A stretch of DNA of 64,000 bases from Methanomicrobiaceae archaeon. GTDB taxonomy: Archaea; Halobacteriota; Methanomicrobia; Methanomicrobiales; Methanomicrobiaceae. The notes under the pieces were generated by a model. That model was not told where the DNA came from. It saw nothing but the letters and a program-made list of their open reading frames with translations, and did no database searches. Shown here in pieces: positions 50,544-60,736 of the stretch (position 1 is its first letter; every line of letters starts with the position of its first letter). Location of the stretch: NCBI GenBank assembly GCA_029762625.1, contig JARVGI010000009.1, positions 1-64,000 on the forward strand. The letters run 5' to 3'. The translations under genes and the position numbers were made by a program.

Positions 50544-52195
50544 TCACTCCCCGTGATACTTCGCGGCGATGGGCATCCTTCTCCCCGAGCCGAACACCTT
50601 GGGGGTCACTTTCAGGCCGGTGGCGAGCTGCCGGTGCTTGTACTCGTTCCGGTCCACCCGGCGCACCACCCAGTCCACCGTGGCCGGGTCGAATCCCCGC
50701 CCGGTGATCTCCGCAGGGGAATCCCCCTCGTCGATGTACGCGTTCAGGATGCCGTCGAGGGTCTCGTACTGGAGCAGCGTGTCCCGGTCGAGCTGGTCCG
50801 GCCTGAGCTCCGCGGAAGGCGCTTTCGTGAGGATCGCATCCGGTATCACGGGCGATCTCCGGTTGATTTCTTGCGCCAGCCGATAGACCATCGTCTTCGG
50901 CACATCGGAGAAAACAGCGAGCCCGCCGGACATATCCCCGTAGAGGGTGCAGTAGCCCACTGCCAGCTCGCTCTTGTTGCCGGTCGAGAGGACAAGGTAG
51001 CCGTACTCGTTTGAGAGCGCCATGAGGATATTGCCCCGGATGCGTGCCTGAATGTTCTCGAAGGTGACGGTCACCTCACCCCTGCGACCGATGGTGTCTG
51101 CGAGCATATCCACATAGGCATCATACACTGCGGTGATGGGGATCTCGAGGAACTCTATCCCGAGATTCGCAGCAAGCACGGCCGAATCGCGTATGCTGCC
51201 CGCGGAGGAGTACGGCCCCGGCATGGTCACCCCCACCACCTGCCCAGGTCCCAGCGCCTCGACCGCAAGGCAGCAGACGACCGCCGAATCGATCCCGCCT
51301 GGCAGGCCGATGACCACCCTCGAGAACCCGCATTTTTTGACGTAGTCCCGGAGACCGAGCATCAGCGCACCATGGATGCTCTCCACCTCGGCAAGCGTCC
51401 GGTACGGATGAGGAGGGGCCGGCCGATCCGTATCCACGGTTACCACCGCCTCCTCAAATGCCGGGAGCATTGCGATCGGTTCCCCCCTGCCATCAAGGCA
51501 CATCGATCTCTCGTCGAAAATGAGCTCGTCATTCCCGCCGACCTGGTTGACGCTCAGGAAGGGGATGCCGTGCTTGCGGGCATGGCTCCGGTAGATAGTG
51601 AATCTCATGTGCTCTTTTCCGGCATGGAACGGCGAGGCGGAGATATTCACCAGCAGGTCCGCACCCATCCCGGCGAGAGTCGCCTGCGGGTCGGAAGGAT
51701 AGAACCTCCTCGGCCAGAGCCGGGGATCGTTCCAGGCGTCCTCGCAGATCGAGACCCCGAGGATTCGGCCCCCGAAACCGGTCACGTCCACCGAGGGTGC
51801 CGGATCAAAATAGCGCACCTCGTCGAAGACATCGTACATCGGCAAAAGAGACGTGTGCTGGGTGAAAGGCACCGCGCCGTCGCGGACCAGGAGTGCCGAG
51901 TTGTAGAGCCCCTTCCTGTCTCCTGCCCCGTGGGCCGGGGGACGCCGAAAAGGACACCGTTCTCGGGATAGTGTGTCGAGAGCTCCAGGACATCCCTCAC
52001 CGCCCGATCCGCCCTTTCGATAAACCAACGACGTTCGAGGAGGTCGCGGGGAGGATATCCGACCAGGAAAAGTTCCGGAAAGATGACAAGATCCGGCGCA
52101 TCAACCCTGCACCGGTGCAGTGTCTCCTCTATCCGCGCCACGTTGCCGTCCATATCGCCGACAAACGGGTTGAGCGGGGCAAGAGTAATCTTCAT
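50544..52195 (-). pseudogene. nadE: Glutamine-dependent NAD+ synthetase, frameshifted
   Basis: Converts NaAD to NAD using glutamine. The N-terminal nitrilase domain starts at ATG 52195 (LAPLNPFVGDMDGNVARI, catalytic FPELFLVGYPPRDLL). The frame then shifts by one base at a CCCC run (plus 51909-51912); the rest of the nitrilase (ISICEDAW-like GVSICEDAW) and the synthetase domain continue in another frame to 50544. The ATP-pyrophosphatase loop, normally SGGxDS, reads PGGIDSA here, a single base away from Ser. Two hits point to real decay, although an indel artefact is possible for the frameshift. Confidence 0.87.
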
Positions 52196-52656: not shown

Positions 52657-53466
52657 ATGAACCCGCACAGGATACACATGAAAAACCACACTGCCGCTTC
52701 AGGAACCGCCCTGACCCGGGACCACCGGATCATCGCGGTCCGGGAAGATGGCGCCGGGCCGGCCAACGTCCAGGTATGCATCGAAGAAACGGTCACTCTT
52801 TCCCTCAACGGGAGGCCGGTGATCACTCTCAAGATCACCCCCGCGGATCTGGAGAGTTTCGCCGTCGGGTTTCTCGTATGCGAGGGGTTGATTTCGGATC
52901 CATCCTGCATCGCTGCGGTGGAGATCGATCTCCCCATCATTGCGGTATCGGCCGATACTGACGCATGTGTTGGGAATGATCATCCCCTCGAAACCCGGAG
53001 CGCGGGCACCGGTATCAGGCACCCGCAGGAGATCGCGGGCCCGCCGCTCGGGAAGGGCATTACCATCGACAAGGCGGTCCTCTTCGAGGGAATCCGGCAG
53101 GTCCATGAGACCGCATCCGTCTGGCGGTCCACGGGTGGAACGCACTGCACCATCCTCGTGGATGCCGAAGGAACCATCCGGTCCTCGGCAGAGGATATCG
53201 GGCGGCACAGCTCGGTGGATAAAGCGGTGGGACACGCGATTCTCTCCGGCGTTACGCCGGGGGAGTGCTTTATGGTCTGCACCGGCAGGCTCCCGGGCGA
53301 TATGGTGGCGAAGGCGTACCATGCAGGGATCTCCATTGTTGTCAGCAACAATGCCCCCTTTTCGTCGGGGATTGCCCTTGCCGAACGGATGGCTATCACG
53401 CTCGTGGGATTCGCCCGGCCGCCACGGATGAGCATCTACACGCATCCGGAGCGCATCCGTCTCTAG
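52657..53466 (+). CDS. fdhD: Formate dehydrogenase accessory sulfurtransferase FdhD, lacking the cysteine pair
   Basis: FdhD delivers sulfur to the molybdopterin cofactor of formate dehydrogenase. The 269-residue protein has family landmarks: ADLESFAVGFLVCEGLI (63-79), STGGTHCTILVD, SSAEDIGRHSSVDKAVG (176-192) and the CTGRLPGDMVAKAYHAGISIVV-type substrate strand. The loop that carries a CxxC pair in E. coli FdhD, here about residues 114-133 (RSAGTGIRHPQEIAGPPLGK), has no cysteine. Cys164 in GTHC and Cys204/208 are the only nearby thiols. It lies next to fdhBA, on the opposite strand. Confidence 0.88.
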   Translation: MNPHRIHMKNHTAASGTALTRDHRIIAVREDGAGPANVQVCIEETVTLSLNGRPVITLKITPADLESFAVGFLVCEGLISDPSCIAAVEIDLPIIAVSADTDACVGNDHPLETRSAGTGIRHPQEIAGPPLGKGITIDKAVLFEGIRQVHETASVWRSTGGTHCTILVDAEGTIRSSAEDIGRHSSVDKAVGHAILSGVTPGECFMVCTGRLPGDMVAKAYHAGISIVVSNNAPFSSGIALAERMAITLVGFARPPRMSIYTHPERIRL

Positions 53467-53772: not shown

Positions 53773-54927
53773 TTAGTTTGTATAGGGTGCTTTCCCGAGC
53801 TTGGGCTCAAATAACAGATCCCCTTCTGTGCGAATCGCATGGGAGAACAGGGCGAGCGGGATCTCCATCGGGCAGAGTTCCTCGCACTGTCCGCAGTTCA
53901 CGCAGGTGTCAGAGATATGGGCGAACCGACGCAGGTGGAACATCGGGTCGACCGGGAGTCCTCCACGCCGGATCATGCGTGAATCCTTCTGGAACTGCTC
54001 GGGGTCGGTGAAGCAGACCGGGCACTGGTCGATGCAGGAATAGCATTTGACACAGCGACCCGTTTCGCGTTCGATGGTACCCCAGAGATCCTCGTTCAGG
54101 GCCGAAAAGTCGCGGTCACGCCATTTCTGCCCGAGTTTCTTCATGGCCCCCTCGACCTTCCCCCGTATCTCGATCCCTTTCGGGTTTGCGGGTTCGGTGG
54201 CGATGGCGCCGGCTGCCATGGCTTTCGCCATAAGGTCGGATCCTTTGTCGCTGCATACCTCGACGAAGGTTGCTCTGCCGGCCTTGTCCCCGATCACGCC
54301 CCAATTTCCGCAGGCGAGATCGGCTTCCCGCGGGACCTTGTACAGGCACCTGCGGCAGTTGGACCGGCGGCCGTAATCTTCTTCTTCGAGGTCGTCGATT
54401 GAAATACCCTTGTGCTCACCGTCCTTGGTGATGACGATGAACTGGCCTTTGTCGATCTCCTCCTTGACCACGTCATCGGGGTTGATCCCGAACTTCTCCT
54501 TGATCATCTTCCGGGCCGTCACAGGGCTGACCGTACCGCCGCAGTTAAGACCGATCAGCAGGATATTGTCAAGATTGACCGCATCTCGCCTCGCGAGCTC
54601 GATCAGTCCCATCAGATCACAGCCCTTGACCGCCATGGCGATCTTCTTGTCCTTCATATCCTCAAGATACGTCGCGACCAGCTTGGAGAGGAGCAGGGTT
54701 CCGGTGTGGAGGGATCCTGCGGTCTTGTTGAGTTCTTCCGGATCGGTGATTACGACCGGGACTGCATCATAGAGATCCACCCCTTTCTTCACGGCGAGGA
54801 CCCCGTCCACCATTTTGTTCTCGAGAGCGAAGTGGAGGAGACCGGTCACCGCTCCCCCGCATTCCGCAGACTTCGCAATGTCTGCGTTGTTGGTCCAGGT
54901 GTAGAGCATATCGCCTTTTGCCACCAT
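53773..54927 (-). CDS. fdhB: F420-dependent formate dehydrogenase, beta subunit
   Basis: A 384-residue subunit of the FrhB/FdhB family that carries FAD and reduces coenzyme F420 with electrons from FdhA. The N-terminal F420-hydrogenase-beta domain includes AVKGCDLMGLIELARRD and IGLNCGGTVSP. A middle cysteine region SNCRRCLY and two C-terminal [4Fe-4S] sets CVKCYSC..C and CVNCGQCEELC complete the electron path. It starts at ATG 54927, two bases after the fdhA stop. Confidence 0.96.
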   Translation of the reverse strand: MVAKGDMLYTWTNNADIAKSAECGGAVTGLLHFALENKMVDGVLAVKKGVDLYDAVPVVITDPEELNKTAGSLHTGTLLLSKLVATYLEDMKDKKIAMAVKGCDLMGLIELARRDAVNLDNILLIGLNCGGTVSPVTARKMIKEKFGINPDDVVKEEIDKGQFIVITKDGEHKGISIDDLEEEDYGRRSNCRRCLYKVPREADLACGNWGVIGDKAGRATFVEVCSDKGSDLMAKAMAAGAIATEPANPKGIEIRGKVEGAMKKLGQKWRDRDFSALNEDLWGTIERETGRCVKCYSCIDQCPVCFTDPEQFQKDSRMIRRGGLPVDPMFHLRRFAHISDTCVNCGQCEELCPMEIPLALFSHAIRTEGDLLFEPKLGKAPYTN

Positions 54928-54928
54928 T

Positions 54929-56995
54929 TCACTTCGCCCCCTCGATCTTCTCGACCGCCACCGCACAGTGCTTGAGCTCCGGCATCTTGGACATCGGGTC
55001 GAGCGCGGTGTTGGTGAGTGCGTTGGCGCCGTTGGGGAAGTGCATGGTCATCATGAGGACGCCGGGCGCCACTTCGTCGGTGACCCGGGCAACAGGCAGC
55101 GACTCTCCGCGACGGCTGCGCAGTTTGATCTTCTCCCCGTTCTTAATCCCCAGTGTGTTTGCATCCTCGGTGTTGATCTGGACGTACCCCTCGGGCACCT
55201 CGTAGTCGAGAATCTTGGACCGGCCGGTCTGGGTTCTCGTGTGATAGTGGAAGATCAACCTGCCGGTCATCAGGGTGAAGGGATACTCGGCATCGGCGAC
55301 CTCGGCCGGAGGCCGGTACTCGATCCCGAAGAAGGCTCCGAGGCCGTCCGCGGCGGCGAACTTGCCCTGGTGCAGGATAGGTGTGCCCGGATGATCTTCG
55401 GCCGGACAGGGCCAGTGCACCGATTCAGGCTTTTCCATACGTGCGTAGGAGATCCCCGCCATGGAGGGAGTGCACCGGCGCACATCGTTCCAGATATCCT
55501 CCGGCGAGTTGAAGTCAAAGCCATTCAGGCCGAGCCTCTTTGCCAGTTCGACAAAGACCTGCCAGTCCTCCTTGGCATCGCCGGGGGGCTCGACTGCTTT
55601 CCTGATACGGTTGATGCGTCGTTCACCGCTTGTGAAGCAGCCGTCCTTCTCGGCGAAACATGCGCCGGGCAGGATCACATCGGCGTACTGGGTTGTTTCG
55701 GTCGGGAAGATATCATGCACGACCAGGAAGTCCAGTTTCTCCAGCTGCCGCTTGACATGGTTCGAATTCGGGTACGAGACCGCCGGATTCAACGCAAAGA
55801 TGTACATCGCCTTGATGGGATCGCCGCACTCGTCGATCTGTTCGGTCAGGGCTGAGCCGTACCACGGGGGAAGGTCGGTGACGCCCCAGAGGCCCTCCAT
55901 TTTATGCCGTATCTCGTCGACTTCGCACTTCTGGTAGCCGGAGTACACGTTCGGGTAGGCACCCATGTCGCAGGCACCCTGCACGTTGTTCTGGCCACGG
56001 AGCGGGTTGACGCCGACACCCGGACGTCCGATGTTGCCACAGAGCATCGAGAGGTTTCCGAGCGAACGCACGTTGTCTGTACCCGTGGTCAGTTCGGTGA
56101 TGCCAAGACAGTAGATGATCACCGCATTCTTCGCCGCGGCGTACTTGCGTGCCATCTCTTTGACCGTCTCGGTCGGAACGCCGGTGATGTTCTCGACATC
56201 CGCGTACTTCTCCACGGTCTGCTTCAGGTCCTCGAAGCCCTTCGTCCGGGACTCGATGAACTCTTTGTCATGCAGGCCCTCCTTGATGATCCAGTACATC
56301 ATCGAGTTGATGAGGGCGATGTGCGTCGAAGGGTTGAACCGGACCCACTGGTCGGCAAGCCGTGCGGTCGGGCTCAGCCTCGGGTCGACGACCATAATCG
56401 GGATCCCCTTCAGCTTCGCCTGAGCGATTCTCCTGCCGGCGAGGGGGTGCGCTTCGACCGGATTCGAGCCCCAGATAAGGATAAAATCTGAGTTCAGGAC
56501 ATCCTCGAACGGATTCGTCGCGGCACCCGAACCGAACGAGAGCGAGAGTCCGGCCACTGAAGGCCCGTGGCAGATCCGTGCGCAGTTGTCGATGTTGTTT
56601 GTCTTGAACGCCACGCGGGCCAACTTCTGCATGATGTAGCATTCCTCGTTCGGCGTCCGGCACGATACCTGGAATCCCAGAGATTTCGGCCCGTACTTCT
56701 CGTAGGTCTCTTTGAATTTCGAGGCGATAAGGTCAAGTGCCTCGTCCCAGCTCGCTTCCTCGAACTTCCCGTTCTTCTTGATCAGGGGTTTTGTCAGCCG
56801 GTCAGGGCTGTGAATATGCTCCCAGCACGTTGCGCCTTTCGGACAGAGCTTTCCCTCATTGATGGGGCTCCTGTGAAAGGGTGCCACACCGACCACCTTG
56901 TCGTCATTGACCACGAGGTTCAGGCCACATCCCACCCCGCAATAGGGGCAGGTGGTGGGCACGTATTTCAGCAGAGAATTGCTTTCATTACTCAT
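54929..56995 (-). CDS. fdhA: F420-dependent formate dehydrogenase, catalytic alpha subunit
   Basis: A 688-residue molybdopterin/tungstopterin oxidoreductase that oxidises formate to CO2. The N-terminal [4Fe-4S] motif is CPYCGVGCGL with KLCPKG. The active site reads NCARICHGPSVAGL, so the metal ligand is cysteine (Sec in E. coli FdhF). The lysine and His near the active site (CHGPSVAG) are intact. Molybdopterin-binding repeats run through the C-terminus. ATG 56995 (MSNES) is preferred; 57001 is possible. With fdhB it allows growth on formate. Confidence 0.97.
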   Translation of the reverse strand: MSNESNSLLKYVPTTCPYCGVGCGLNLVVNDDKVVGVAPFHRSPINEGKLCPKGATCWEHIHSPDRLTKPLIKKNGKFEEASWDEALDLIASKFKETYEKYGPKSLGFQVSCRTPNEECYIMQKLARVAFKTNNIDNCARICHGPSVAGLSLSFGSGAATNPFEDVLNSDFILIWGSNPVEAHPLAGRRIAQAKLKGIPIMVVDPRLSPTARLADQWVRFNPSTHIALINSMMYWIIKEGLHDKEFIESRTKGFEDLKQTVEKYADVENITGVPTETVKEMARKYAAAKNAVIIYCLGITELTTGTDNVRSLGNLSMLCGNIGRPGVGVNPLRGQNNVQGACDMGAYPNVYSGYQKCEVDEIRHKMEGLWGVTDLPPWYGSALTEQIDECGDPIKAMYIFALNPAVSYPNSNHVKRQLEKLDFLVVHDIFPTETTQYADVILPGACFAEKDGCFTSGERRINRIRKAVEPPGDAKEDWQVFVELAKRLGLNGFDFNSPEDIWNDVRRCTPSMAGISYARMEKPESVHWPCPAEDHPGTPILHQGKFAAADGLGAFFGIEYRPPAEVADAEYPFTLMTGRLIFHYHTRTQTGRSKILDYEVPEGYVQINTEDANTLGIKNGEKIKLRSRRGESLPVARVTDEVAPGVLMMTMHFPNGANALTNTALDPMSKMPELKHCAVAVEKIEGAK

Positions 56996-57218
56996 ATGCA
57001 TTCACCATTTCCAGAACACCGCCATTATCAAGCGGAACTAATTAACTAACGTTAATTGTTAAAAGGTTACCATTAAATTATTTAAACATAGGGAAATGAC
57101 CGATAGTATTATAAAGTATCCCGGGGTGTTCCGGGCCGGGTACACGGGTGTATAATTCAAAAGAGTTAATTCGATAGAATTGTTAGTACATAGGTGTTAA
57201 TTGGATGAGTGTTGCCTA
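56996..57218. promoter_or_regulatory. Divergent promoter region between fdhA and fmdE
   Basis: This AT-rich 223-base region has a minus-strand TATA-like TTTAAATAATTTAA at 57074-57090 for fdhA and a plus-strand TATAATTC at 57150-57157 for fmdE. GTTAATT occurs three times (57051, 57165, 57196), and the first is part of an imperfect inverted repeat with TAACGTTA at its core (57037-57064). These are good operator candidates controlling formate genes and the FmdE block together. Confidence 0.55.
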
Positions 57219-57854
57219 ATGATGACCGCAGAGAACGATTTATCAGCAATCATGGATTCACATTCTATCTCTCCAGTGATGAAAGGGCATTTTGACCGCT
57301 GCATCGACTTCCATACCTATCCGGCACCGGGCCTCCTTATCGGCGTATTCATGGTAGATTATGCGCTTGAGCTGCTCGGTGCTACGCCAGGGGAAAAACT
57401 CTACGCGGTGGCCGAGACATACAAGTGTGCGCCCGACCCGCTCCAGGTCATCCTGAACTGCACCTCCGGGAACCACCGTCTCCGCATCATCCCGATAGGG
57501 AAATTCGCAATCACGCTCAATCGACCGTCCACAGAGGCCCACACCGACGGATTCCGGGTTTTTGTGGATGCCGACAAGATAGGCCGGTACCCGGTCCTCG
57601 CGGCATGGTTCAGAAACGAGCCTACCTTCAAAAAGCAGTCCATGGAACAACAACTGCTCGACGAAATTTTCACTGCGAAGCGGGATATCCTCTCCGCCGA
57701 GAAAGTCCGCGTCGAGGTCACACCAAAGCAGAAATGGCAATCCGCGAAGTGCCCGATCTGTGGCGAGACGGTTCCCGGGGATATGCTCGAGGATGGCGTC
57801 TGCAGGGGATGCGGATCAATGACCTATTATCAGGCGGTTGAGGCGGTCGATTAA
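57219..57854 (+). CDS. fmdE: FmdE-family protein
   Basis: A 211-residue member of the FmdE family, whose founder is encoded with molybdenum formylmethanofuran dehydrogenase in methanogens. Signatures: HTYPAPGLLIGVFMVDYALELL, KCAPDPLQVILNCTSGNHRLRII and GKFAITL. A C-terminal zinc ribbon CPIC...CRGC ends the chain. The molecular role is not settled; it is thought to help assembly or regulate Mo/W enzymes. The adjacent start codons ATG 57219/57222 are both possible. The next gene begins within 40 bases and encodes a second FmdE-like domain. Confidence 0.9.
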   Translation: MMTAENDLSAIMDSHSISPVMKGHFDRCIDFHTYPAPGLLIGVFMVDYALELLGATPGEKLYAVAETYKCAPDPLQVILNCTSGNHRLRIIPIGKFAITLNRPSTEAHTDGFRVFVDADKIGRYPVLAAWFRNEPTFKKQSMEQQLLDEIFTAKRDILSAEKVRVEVTPKQKWQSAKCPICGETVPGDMLEDGVCRGCGSMTYYQAVEAVD

Positions 57855-57891
57855 TCAGATAATCGCCCTCAGGTTCGGGGAGCGGCGAGAG

Positions 57892-58716
57892 ATGGACTCT
57901 TTACAACTTGTTCCAGTGGGGGTGATTCACTCCCCGATCTGGTCACGAAAAGAGATGCCGGCGCTCGGCGTGGACGGTGCGATCGAAATTTTCCCGTCCT
58001 TTGCTGAAGCCCTGAAAGGCATCGAAAATCACTCTCATCTTCTTGTGATCGGCTGGATGCATGCCGCGGACCGCAGCGTCCGCAGGGCTGTTCCCAGAAA
58101 AATATCTCCCGACCTTCCCGAGAAAGGAGTGTTTGCCCTCAGGTCACCTGCCCGGCCAAACCCAATCTCCGTAACCGTGGTAGAGCTGCGCGAAGTGAAC
58201 GAGGATCGAATGCTCGAGGTATCCTTTCTCGATCTCATCGAAGGGACACCTGTACTCGATCTCAAGCCCTATCAGCCGGGGACCGATTGTGTATTCTCGG
58301 CAAGAAGCTTTGATCTCTCAAATAAAATTGGAAAAATTGCCCCGGAACGCTACCGGGAGGATCTCTCCCGGGCAGCAGTCGGATACCATGGTGAGTACTG
58401 CCCAGCCGTCGCGGTCGCGGTACGGATGATGATTGCCGCCACGCATTCACTCGGTGGTGATCTACGAAGACCAGAAATTATCGTTTCCCTCGGGCCTGAT
58501 CCCTGCATGAACGACGCCCTGATCGGCATAACCGGGGCACGGTTCGGAAACGGTCGGCTGATAATTCCTGACGATTGGCCCGGAACTTCGGTGTACACGA
58601 TTTCAGGACCTAAAATAACGTTGGAATTCAGTATCGTATCAATTCCCTGCGAAATGACGCAGGTGAATGCCGCACGAGATGAGGAATTATTCCTCCTCGA
58701 AGTTAAGAATAAATAA
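57892..58716 (+). CDS. TrmO-FmdE fusion protein
   Basis: A 274-residue two-domain protein. Residues 1-140 match TrmO (YaeB/TsaA), the methyltransferase making m6t6A37 in tRNA: VGVIHSPIWSR, GIENHSHLLVIGWMH and LRSPARPNPISVTVVEL. Residues about 164-255 look like FmdE: YHGEYCPAVAVAVRMM, then DPCMNDALIGITGARFGNGRLI, the same order as in the FmdE encoded just before. ATG 57892 has a GAGCGGCGAGAG leader. The context (FmdE, MoeA, FdhBA) suggests a role in Mo/W cofactor or enzyme regulation. Confidence 0.88.
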   Translation: MDSLQLVPVGVIHSPIWSRKEMPALGVDGAIEIFPSFAEALKGIENHSHLLVIGWMHAADRSVRRAVPRKISPDLPEKGVFALRSPARPNPISVTVVELREVNEDRMLEVSFLDLIEGTPVLDLKPYQPGTDCVFSARSFDLSNKIGKIAPERYREDLSRAAVGYHGEYCPAVAVAVRMMIAATHSLGGDLRRPEIIVSLGPDPCMNDALIGITGARFGNGRLIIPDDWPGTSVYTISGPKITLEFSIVSIPCEMTQVNAARDEELFLLEVKNK

Positions 58717-58819: not shown

Positions 58820-60736
58820 ATGAAGAAACAATACCTTTCATTGCGTAATCAGGGCGATGCTCTGGCCTTGATGAAGAACGCCTTTCCGCCTCCGGGGAGA
58901 TCCATCACCATCCCCCTTCTCGAATCGGAAGGCAGGGTAGTCGCGGATCCGATATATGCCCCCTATGCAGTGCCGGATGCGACAATTGCCGAAACAGACG
59001 GCATCGCGGTAAAGAGCAGCAACACCGCAGGTGCAGGAGAACAGCGCCCGGTGGTGCTCTCAGATTTTGTCAGGGTTGATACCGGGGATGTGATCCCACC
59101 GGAATACGATGCCGTAATCTCCTTCGAAGAGATCCAGCCCAAAGAAACGTTCTGTATTGCGCGAAAAGCTGCCCGTCTGGGCCAGGGTATCCGCTCTGTC
59201 GGACAGGACATTCGGAGAGGGGATCTGATCATTCCAAGAGGCCACCAGATCCGGTCTTCCGACATCAGTGCCCTCGCCTCTTATGGGTATGACCGGGTAC
59301 CTGTCAGAGCGGTCCGTGTCGGTATTATTCCCGTTGGCAACGAACTCGTCCCCATCGGGACCCTGCCGGAACCGGGCCAATTTGTCGAGAGCAACAGTGT
59401 CTTTGCCGCCTCATTCCTCTCCCGCCTGGGTGCACTCTGGACGAGGTATGCGATCGTGCCCGATGACCCTCTGGAAATAGAAAACTCGCTTGAAAAGGCG
59501 ATTTCCGAAAATGATCTTGTTCTCATCTCTTCAGGAACTTCGACGGGGAGGTACGATTACACCGCCGAATCAATCACCCGACTGGGCATGCTCCTCTTTC
59601 ACGGGATTGCCATGCTGCCCGGAAAACCCGCGATGGCAGGCGAGGTCGGAGGAAAGCCGGTAATAGGTTTACCGGGATATCCTGTCGGTTCGCAGACAGT
59701 GCTCCGTGAACTGGTCGCGCCACTCCTGATCTACTGGGGACTTGCTCCGGTGCCTGAATGGATTATCCCGGGAAGGCTCGCAAAAAATATGCCTTCCGAA
59801 CTTGGCTTTGACGAATATATTCCGGTATCGGTGGGTTCTGTCAATGGCTGTGCATGGGCATTTCCTCATCCGCGGGGTTCAGGTCTCCAGATGAATCTGG
59901 TCCGGGCCAACGGATATCTCCACATCCCCCCTCATTCAGAGGGATGGGAAGCCGGAGCGTGGGCTCACATTCATTGCACCTCTCTGCCACACCTGATTGA
60001 ACGGACACTGCTCTGTGTCGGGGCAAAAACCCCGGGAATTGCCCTTCTTGCGAATACTCTGGCCGACAATGCTATCAGTATGCACACATTTGCCGTCATG
60101 CCTGCCCGGGCGCTTCTCTATCTGCAAAATAACTCCTGCAATATTGTAACCCTGAGCACCCCTCAGATCAATCTCCTGCCTGAAATGAATCAGGGTCTCA
60201 GGAACCTGCCTTCGGTCAGCATTCATATCGGCCAGATGCAGATCGGCATCGTTTCGCGTGACGGGATCCGTATCGAAGATCTTGCCAACACCAGTCTGAT
60301 AAATGCGCCGAGGGGATCGACGGGAAGGATGCTCCTCGACAAATTCCTCTCAGCAGGAGATCTCCGTCCGGATCAGATCCGTGGTGATTTCCGCAACATG
60401 AAAAAGACCGAACACGCGGTGGTCGCTGCGGTCGCGAATGGCATTGCCGATGCAGGAATTTGCTCATTCGCGCTAGCTGCTGATTCAGGGTTATCCTTCA
60501 CACCGGTCACGCTTGAGTCGCATGATATCCTGATCCGGAGGGAATCACTCGACGATGAGAGGGTGCGTACCCTCATGCACGTGATGCAATCTCCGGAATT
60601 CACCCACATGCTGCAGACAAAAGGCAGGTATGTCACGACCCGTACAGGCCAGATCAAAGACTTTCTCCACGAACCGATCGGGGACACGTTCTCAGGTGAG
60701 AAGAAGATATGGACCTCTGAAACCGAAGAGAGCTGA
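58820..60736 (+). CDS. moeA: MoeA-type molybdenum insertase fused to a periplasmic-binding-like domain
   Basis: A 638-residue protein. Residues about 1-400 match MoeA, which inserts molybdate into molybdopterin: VADPIYAPYAVPDAT, ISSGTSTGRYDYTAESI, HGIAMLPGKPAMAGEV and GLPGYPVGSQTVLRE. Residues about 410-638 form a type 2 periplasmic-binding (LysR-substrate-like) fold (TLSTPQINLLPEM, LINAPRGSTGRMLLD, GIADAGICSFALAADSGL). The MoeA-PBP fusion is common in archaea and may sense molybdate or tungstate. It is downstream of the TrmO-FmdE fusion by about 100 bases. Confidence 0.93.
   Translation: MKKQYLSLRNQGDALALMKNAFPPPGRSITIPLLESEGRVVADPIYAPYAVPDATIAETDGIAVKSSNTAGAGEQRPVVLSDFVRVDTGDVIPPEYDAVISFEEIQPKETFCIARKAARLGQGIRSVGQDIRRGDLIIPRGHQIRSSDISALASYGYDRVPVRAVRVGIIPVGNELVPIGTLPEPGQFVESNSVFAASFLSRLGALWTRYAIVPDDPLEIENSLEKAISENDLVLISSGTSTGRYDYTAESITRLGMLLFHGIAMLPGKPAMAGEVGGKPVIGLPGYPVGSQTVLRELVAPLLIYWGLAPVPEWIIPGRLAKNMPSELGFDEYIPVSVGSVNGCAWAFPHPRGSGLQMNLVRANGYLHIPPHSEGWEAGAWAHIHCTSLPHLIERTLLCVGAKTPGIALLANTLADNAISMHTFAVMPARALLYLQNNSCNIVTLSTPQINLLPEMNQGLRNLPSVSIHIGQMQIGIVSRDGIRIEDLANTSLINAPRGSTGRMLLDKFLSAGDLRPDQIRGDFRNMKKTEHAVVAAVANGIADAGICSFALAADSGLSFTPVTLESHDILIRRESLDDERVRTLMHVMQSPEFTHMLQTKGRYVTTRTGQIKDFLHEPIGDTFSGEKKIWTSETEES

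Follow-up and report, generated by a model that had tools for sequence, protein, structure and literature searches.

A TrmO-FmdE fusion subfamily linked to Mo/W genes in methanogens and bacteria and to Moco riboswitches in bacteria

A gene in the formate dehydrogenase locus of a Methanomicrobiaceae archaeon joins a TrmO domain, of a family known for tRNA methylation, to an FmdE domain, and the question is what such a protein does there. Accounts of the core Mo/W-cofactor pathway usually present it as complete. E. coli TrmO uses SAM as methyl donor and needs a DPRxxY domain to methylate tRNA; no archaeal TrmO homolog has this domain, m6t6A has never been found in archaeal tRNA, and the authors of that study suggested another RNA or a protein as the archaeal target (PMC4132733). 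Here, we follow the fusion from the window, meaning the whole analysed stretch of 64,000 nucleotides (contig JARVGI010000009.1, positions 1 to 64,000), to its relatives in archaea and bacteria.

In the window, the fusion gene (57892..58716, + strand) lies between a stand-alone FmdE of 211 aa (57219..57854, +; Pfam FmdE E 6e-29) and a MoeA, of molybdate insertion, with a C-terminal PBP-like domain (58820..60736, +; Pfam/NCBIfam). An intergenic region (57002..57218) separates this FmdE/fusion/moeA transcription unit from the divergent fdhAB unit, which encodes the formate dehydrogenase alpha subunit FdhA (54929..57001, − strand; TIGR01591 above cut-off) and the F420-linked beta subunit FdhB (53773..54966, −; Pfam), and the formate dehydrogenase accessory sulfurtransferase FdhD is encoded at 52657..53466 (+; Pfam/NCBIfam). 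A preliminary description of this DNA had taken the gene before the fusion for an FmdE with a zinc ribbon, and both the Pfam match and the cysteines (CPIC...CRGC) confirm an FmdE that keeps its C-terminal zinc finger, although the Pfam finger model stays below its cut-off. The same description aligned an HGxxCP motif in both proteins, which is not borne out: the core metal site of the stand-alone FmdE is degenerate (FHTYPAPG), the protein reads FHTYPAPGLLIG, with neither the Cys of HGxxCP nor the second metal His, as is also the case for its PDB relative 3d00, and the motif is found in the fused protein only. Elsewhere in the window, at 50544-52195 (−), a NAD synthetase-like gene runs, by eye, over two overlapping frames, which suggests a frameshift or sequencing error.

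The fusion protein itself has 274 aa, and its identity was established with Pfam, NCBIfam, an AlphaFold2 model and a tree. Residues 27-132 (57970..58287, +) match TrmO_N (PF01980) at E 4.4e-28, and the NCBIfam equivalog model TIGR00104 scores 123 bits against a cut-off of 93. Residues 166-237 (58387..58602, +) match FmdE (PF02663) at E 2.4e-10, with 41.0 bits against a gathering cut-off of 22.9, in a partial alignment that covers positions 2-71 of the 133 in the profile. Hence, the joining of the two domains in one protein, first noticed from the letters alone, holds on profile search, including the assignment of the second domain. Among solved structures, phmmer ranks AF0241 (2nv4) and further TrmO proteins best by sequence and gives FmdE 2glz a marginal match. 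The AlphaFold2 model, built from a 38-row alignment, has a mean pLDDT of 91 and a pTM of 0.73, and in Foldseek it matches AF0241 with bound SAM (2nv4; E 1e-14, TM by target 0.89), P. aeruginosa TrmO, FmdE 2glz (E 8e-6, TM by target 0.60) and 3d00, so that the structure prediction recovers the TrmO and FmdE folds. The DPRxxY motif is absent from the fusion sequence, the remainder beyond TrmO_N being FmdE, and the fused FmdE domain also has no C-terminal treble-clef finger, a feature of some FmdE members that the neighbouring stand-alone FmdE has. In one Methanoculleus-type genome (G223; L024/L053), the reading frame of the fusion is lost behind the TrmO domain, near residue 134, so that the gene may be frameshifted or a pseudogene there.

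In the phylum, of which 393 genomes were searched, families f1, f2 and f3 (the window's order) and f14 have full-length relatives, f7 has more distant ones, and f9 and f17 have longer fusions with a complete FmdE. The fusion frame is unbroken in dozens of genomes, and a gene-prediction artefact was rejected. A scan of GTDB genome contigs with a single protein found no relatives; a scan with an alignment, from which any count of taxa is to be read as "at least", did find them, among the matches listed being Methanoculleus sp., a Chloroflexi MAG, Desulfosporosinus, Syntrophomonadaceae, Pelotomaculum, Bryobacteraceae and Dethiobacter. For the phylum of Desulfosporosinus, 15 of 398 genomes carry relatives at E < 1e-45, and 14 of these 15 are full-length. 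In a tree of 177 TrmO domains, the short fusions from methanogens, f7 and bacteria (54 rows), which we call class A, form one clade with support of 100/99, apart from stand-alone TrmO. The long fusions, class B (Archaeoglobaceae and Firmicutes), share the order of TrmO then FmdE but have a full FmdE with FHGHxC and zinc finger and adjoin BtuCDF-type transporters, and their TrmO domains fall in at least two other places of the tree, which implies that TrmO and FmdE were joined at least three times independently. The two are also often separate neighbours, as in the BtuF-BtuC-ABC-TrmO-FmdE arrangement of loci L236, L237, L240 and L241. That the two have been fused repeatedly and often adjoin each other speaks for TrmO and FmdE being functional partners.

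Axelrod et al. 2010 (PMC2954224) listed an FmdE + UPF0066 architecture in which the two domains stand in one protein, as they do in the fusion; they name it as an architecture only and propose neither a function nor a clade, a link to Mo/W or control by a riboswitch. In the literature searched, no paper mentions TrmO and FmdE together. What is new here, with the architecture already on record, is class A as a Mo/W subfamily with riboswitch control, for which we found no precedent in the literature searched.

Both halves of the fusion carry conserved residues at the positions of known binding sites, with one replacement in each. By alignment to AF0241, the SAM-contacting Arg82, Asp111 and Lys122 correspond to R84 (58141-58143, +), D114 (58231-58233, +) and K125 (58264-58266, +), and these positions are invariant in all 54 class A proteins. 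The equivalent of Gln22 is kept in nearly all archaeal class A proteins and lost in most bacterial members; in the fusion it is Leu25 (57964-57966, +). For the FmdE part, with the ligands His15, His17, Cys19 and Cys55 of 2glz as reference (positions from PMC2954224), the putative metal ligands are H166 (58387-58389, +), E168 (58393-58395, +), C170 (58399-58401, +) and C205 (58504-58506, +), and the conserved Asp is D208. Of the class A proteins, 53/54 retain the first His and 49/54 have Glu or Asp in place of the second; the Cys19 equivalent is present in 49/54, the Cys55 equivalent is Cys or His in 49/54 and the Asp58 equivalent is found in 54/54, giving a class A metal signature of H-x-E-x-C...C. 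As judged from sequence conservation, the SAM site and the metal site both look selected, which favours working sites.

Compared with the TrmO/YaeB/TsaA proteins (class VIII SAM methyltransferases, including AF0241, 2nv4), the fusion shares the beta-barrel fold and the SAM-contacting Arg, Asp and Lys but is without DPRxxY, has lost the Gln22 equivalent, belongs to a separate clade in a Mo/W context and has FmdE appended. Compared with FmdE (2glz, 2gvi, 3d00), it shares the core fold, the His, Cys and Cys ligand positions and the conserved Asp, whereas Glu replaces the second His, the treble-clef finger is missing, the profile match ends at 71/133 and TrmO is joined. In 20 of 20 methanogen loci, the fused FmdE with its metal site and without finger is accompanied by a stand-alone FmdE with a degenerate FHT(Y/F) core and a cysteine finger. 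FmdE is known to dimerise by domain swapping (PMC2954224), which makes it plausible that the fusion and the stand-alone FmdE form a heterodimer.

The same residues bear on whether the barrel is an enzyme at all. In a non-catalytic sensor or metallochaperone, SAM or another nucleotide would be a signal bound by the barrel, and an FmdE domain that carries or senses the metal would gate the delivery of Mo/W to MoeA and FdhD. Such a protein would explain why the SAM pocket is kept while the Gln for the SAM amino group is degenerate, in the fusion too, and FmdE family proteins do adjoin metal transporters (PMC2954224). However, the equivalents of R82, D111 and K122 are conserved beyond what would be expected for lost activity, and the characterised relative is a methyltransferase (PMC4132733), and we regard a purely non-catalytic role as unlikely.

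What sets class A apart is where its genes lie. We defined the neighbourhood as 7 kb on either side of the gene and searched it by tblastn with a panel of Mo/W markers, with references mostly checked by HMM; tblastn counts were used because plain ORF calling gave antisense false genes in GC-rich Methanoculleus-type loci. Mo/W markers were found in 20/20 methanogen class A loci, 14 of which are close kin from one genus and hence not independent, in 0/7 loci of f7 and in 10/27 bacterial class A loci, compared with 1/11 for class B and 3/32 for stand-alone TrmO controls (Fisher against stand-alone TrmO, with relatedness ignored, p 1e-11 for methanogens and 0.014 for bacteria). For 9 of the 27 bacterial class A loci and for f7 (0/7), no Mo/W, Ni or metal-transport genes were found within about 7 kb. 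The Mo/W contexts vary by lineage, with ModABC-ModD and TupABC among them. The order is fdhAB/FmdE/fusion/MoeA in f1 and f2 and fdhAB/FmdE/fusion/FdhD in f3, followed in two f3 genomes by ModA-TrmO-ModB-ModC and a formylmethanofuran dehydrogenase B gene; in f14 there are MoeA, two FdhD, Fmd/Fwd-type subunits, FmdE, a MOT1 molybdate transporter and a TOBE protein. Among bacteria, we find ModA-ModD-FmdE-DUF364-fusion (L074), FdhA-like-XdhC-fusion (L204), FdhA-MoeA with FdhD adjoining the fusion (L077), TupA (L076, L212), ModD (L215, L220, L221), AOR (L217) and MOT1 (L222). The concern that the fusion might be a generic TrmO extension is thus settled in favour of a distinct class A clade linked to Mo/W genes in both archaea and Firmicutes.

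Another, stand-alone TrmO paralog, flanked by ModA and ModB, is part of a molybdate ABC operon in L260, L258, L038 and the window's genome (L066:8619-13308), in the last also near a MOT1 transporter. Five class A fusions (L206, L209, L219, L222 and L210) adjoin a secreted protein, c16, with a Pfam-orphan N-terminal domain and in some cases S-layer domains, for which we found no informative PDB match.

Moco riboswitches link class A to the Mo/W cofactor independently of gene annotation. Scanning with Rfam at gathering thresholds placed RF01055 in 10/25 bacterial class A loci, compared with 1/8 class B or BtuCDF-type loci and 0/8 stand-alone TrmO loci (Fisher p 0.03). It heads the fusion operon in six Firmicutes loci (L074, L204, L205, L210, L215 and L221), where it lies 1.8-3.1 kb upstream in the orientation of the fusion and every intervening gene is on that strand too. 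At the background density of 220 riboswitches in about 64.5 Mb from 20 such genomes (about 1 per 293 kb), some 0.13 riboswitch-headed cases would be expected among 26 loci (binomial p ~4e-9, or 9e-6 counting four independent lineages only). This density and the stand-alone TrmO controls led us to reject chance adjacency. Class A very probably belongs to Mo/W handling.

A bacterial protein family that we call DDTD also recurs in class A loci (L076:8488-9240, −; L204; L082:14543-15427; L211), with three copies upstream of the FdhA-like gene in L204 and a Moco riboswitch at its head in L076. Its profile matches TiaS, the archaeal tRNA-Ile2 agmatinylcytidine synthetase (4rvz and 3amt, E ~1e-5; Pfam TiaS_TCKD, 9e-7), and DDTD may be a further case, after TrmO, of a tRNA-enzyme fold that occurs in Mo/W loci.

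The link to formate dehydrogenase is close without being obligatory. FdhA is present in 99/120 genomes of the order and the fusion in 24, which makes the fusion an optional addition to an FmdE-Fdh core and led us to reject a requirement for all formate dehydrogenases. All 24 fusion genomes have an FdhA of a subclass at least 72% identical to that of the window, a subclass seen in 11 of the 96 others. FmdE is still divergent to fdhA in 8 of these 11; of the remaining three, one contig (L269) ends inside the TrmO domain, so that the fusion may be there, and two are cut short.

A tRNA methyltransferase tuned by a metal-binding FmdE domain, conveying Mo/W status to translation, would fit the TIGR00104 score above the equivalog cut-off and the methylation of t6A37 by E. 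coli TrmO (PMC4132733). We consider this quite improbable, since archaeal homologs are without the DPRxxY domain and m6t6A is not known in archaea (PMC4132733), the window's genome has another TrmO paralog, which groups with AF0241, and class A sits in Moco-riboswitch operons with Mo genes. The role of class A is probably a step in Mo/W handling rather than tRNA modification, because it recurs beside Mo/W enzymes, transporters and Moco riboswitches. The preliminary description had proposed that the TrmO part acts on something other than tRNA; a TrmO part that does not make m6t6A would agree with published work (PMC4132733).

A general metal-uptake helper, serving Ni, Co and Fe complexes too with the Mo/W contexts as a subset, would accommodate the BtuCDF-type ABC transporters beside 9/11 class B and 9/32 stand-alone TrmO loci, sometimes with cobalamin riboswitches (L228, L234, L239) or larB/larC/nikR, and the ECF transporters in some class A loci, but class A alone is the clade linked to the riboswitch and to Mo, and each of its methanogen loci outside f7 has Mo genes, which leaves this explanation highly improbable for class A. 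TrmO paralogs may serve the uptake of several metals, with class A as the Mo/W branch. At L225:8433-13775, a class B TrmO-FmdE stands amid larB, larC, nikR, TupABC and a Moco riboswitch, with nickel and tungsten genes together.

On balance, we lean towards the class A fusion being a SAM-dependent Mo/W accessory factor for formate dehydrogenase and related enzymes, acting in their supply with Mo or W. The N-terminal TrmO-type beta-barrel would bind S-adenosylmethionine, and the C-terminal FmdE domain would hold a metal in its H-x-E-x-C...C site. The fusion would work with MoeA, FdhD and the stand-alone FmdE, possibly pairing with the last in a heterodimer to which this partner contributes the zinc finger. 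SAM could then donate its methyl group to a small ligand, or to a thiol or metal-bound group, at the FmdE site, a transfer that would free Mo/W from its imported form or ready Mo/W or the pterin for insertion. More tentatively, and as a possibility that we put forward without favouring it, class A TrmO-FmdE could be a missing enzyme of the Mo/W-cofactor pathway, responsible for a so far overlooked step of cofactor assembly or of the release of Mo/W in which it methylates with SAM or consumes SAM in another way. TrmO and the TiaS-like fold would make at least two folds of tRNA-anticodon-loop enzymes that have been repurposed into Moco-riboswitch loci.

Several paralogs appear to serve metal uptake, and automatic annotation as "tRNA methyltransferase TrmO" probably misnames them; this may explain why archaea have many "TrmO" genes despite m6t6A not being found there. 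Operons and the Moco riboswitch wire a SAM-binding family into the Mo/W-cofactor pathway and, if the fusion is catalytic, it would add an undescribed methylation to Mo/W handling.
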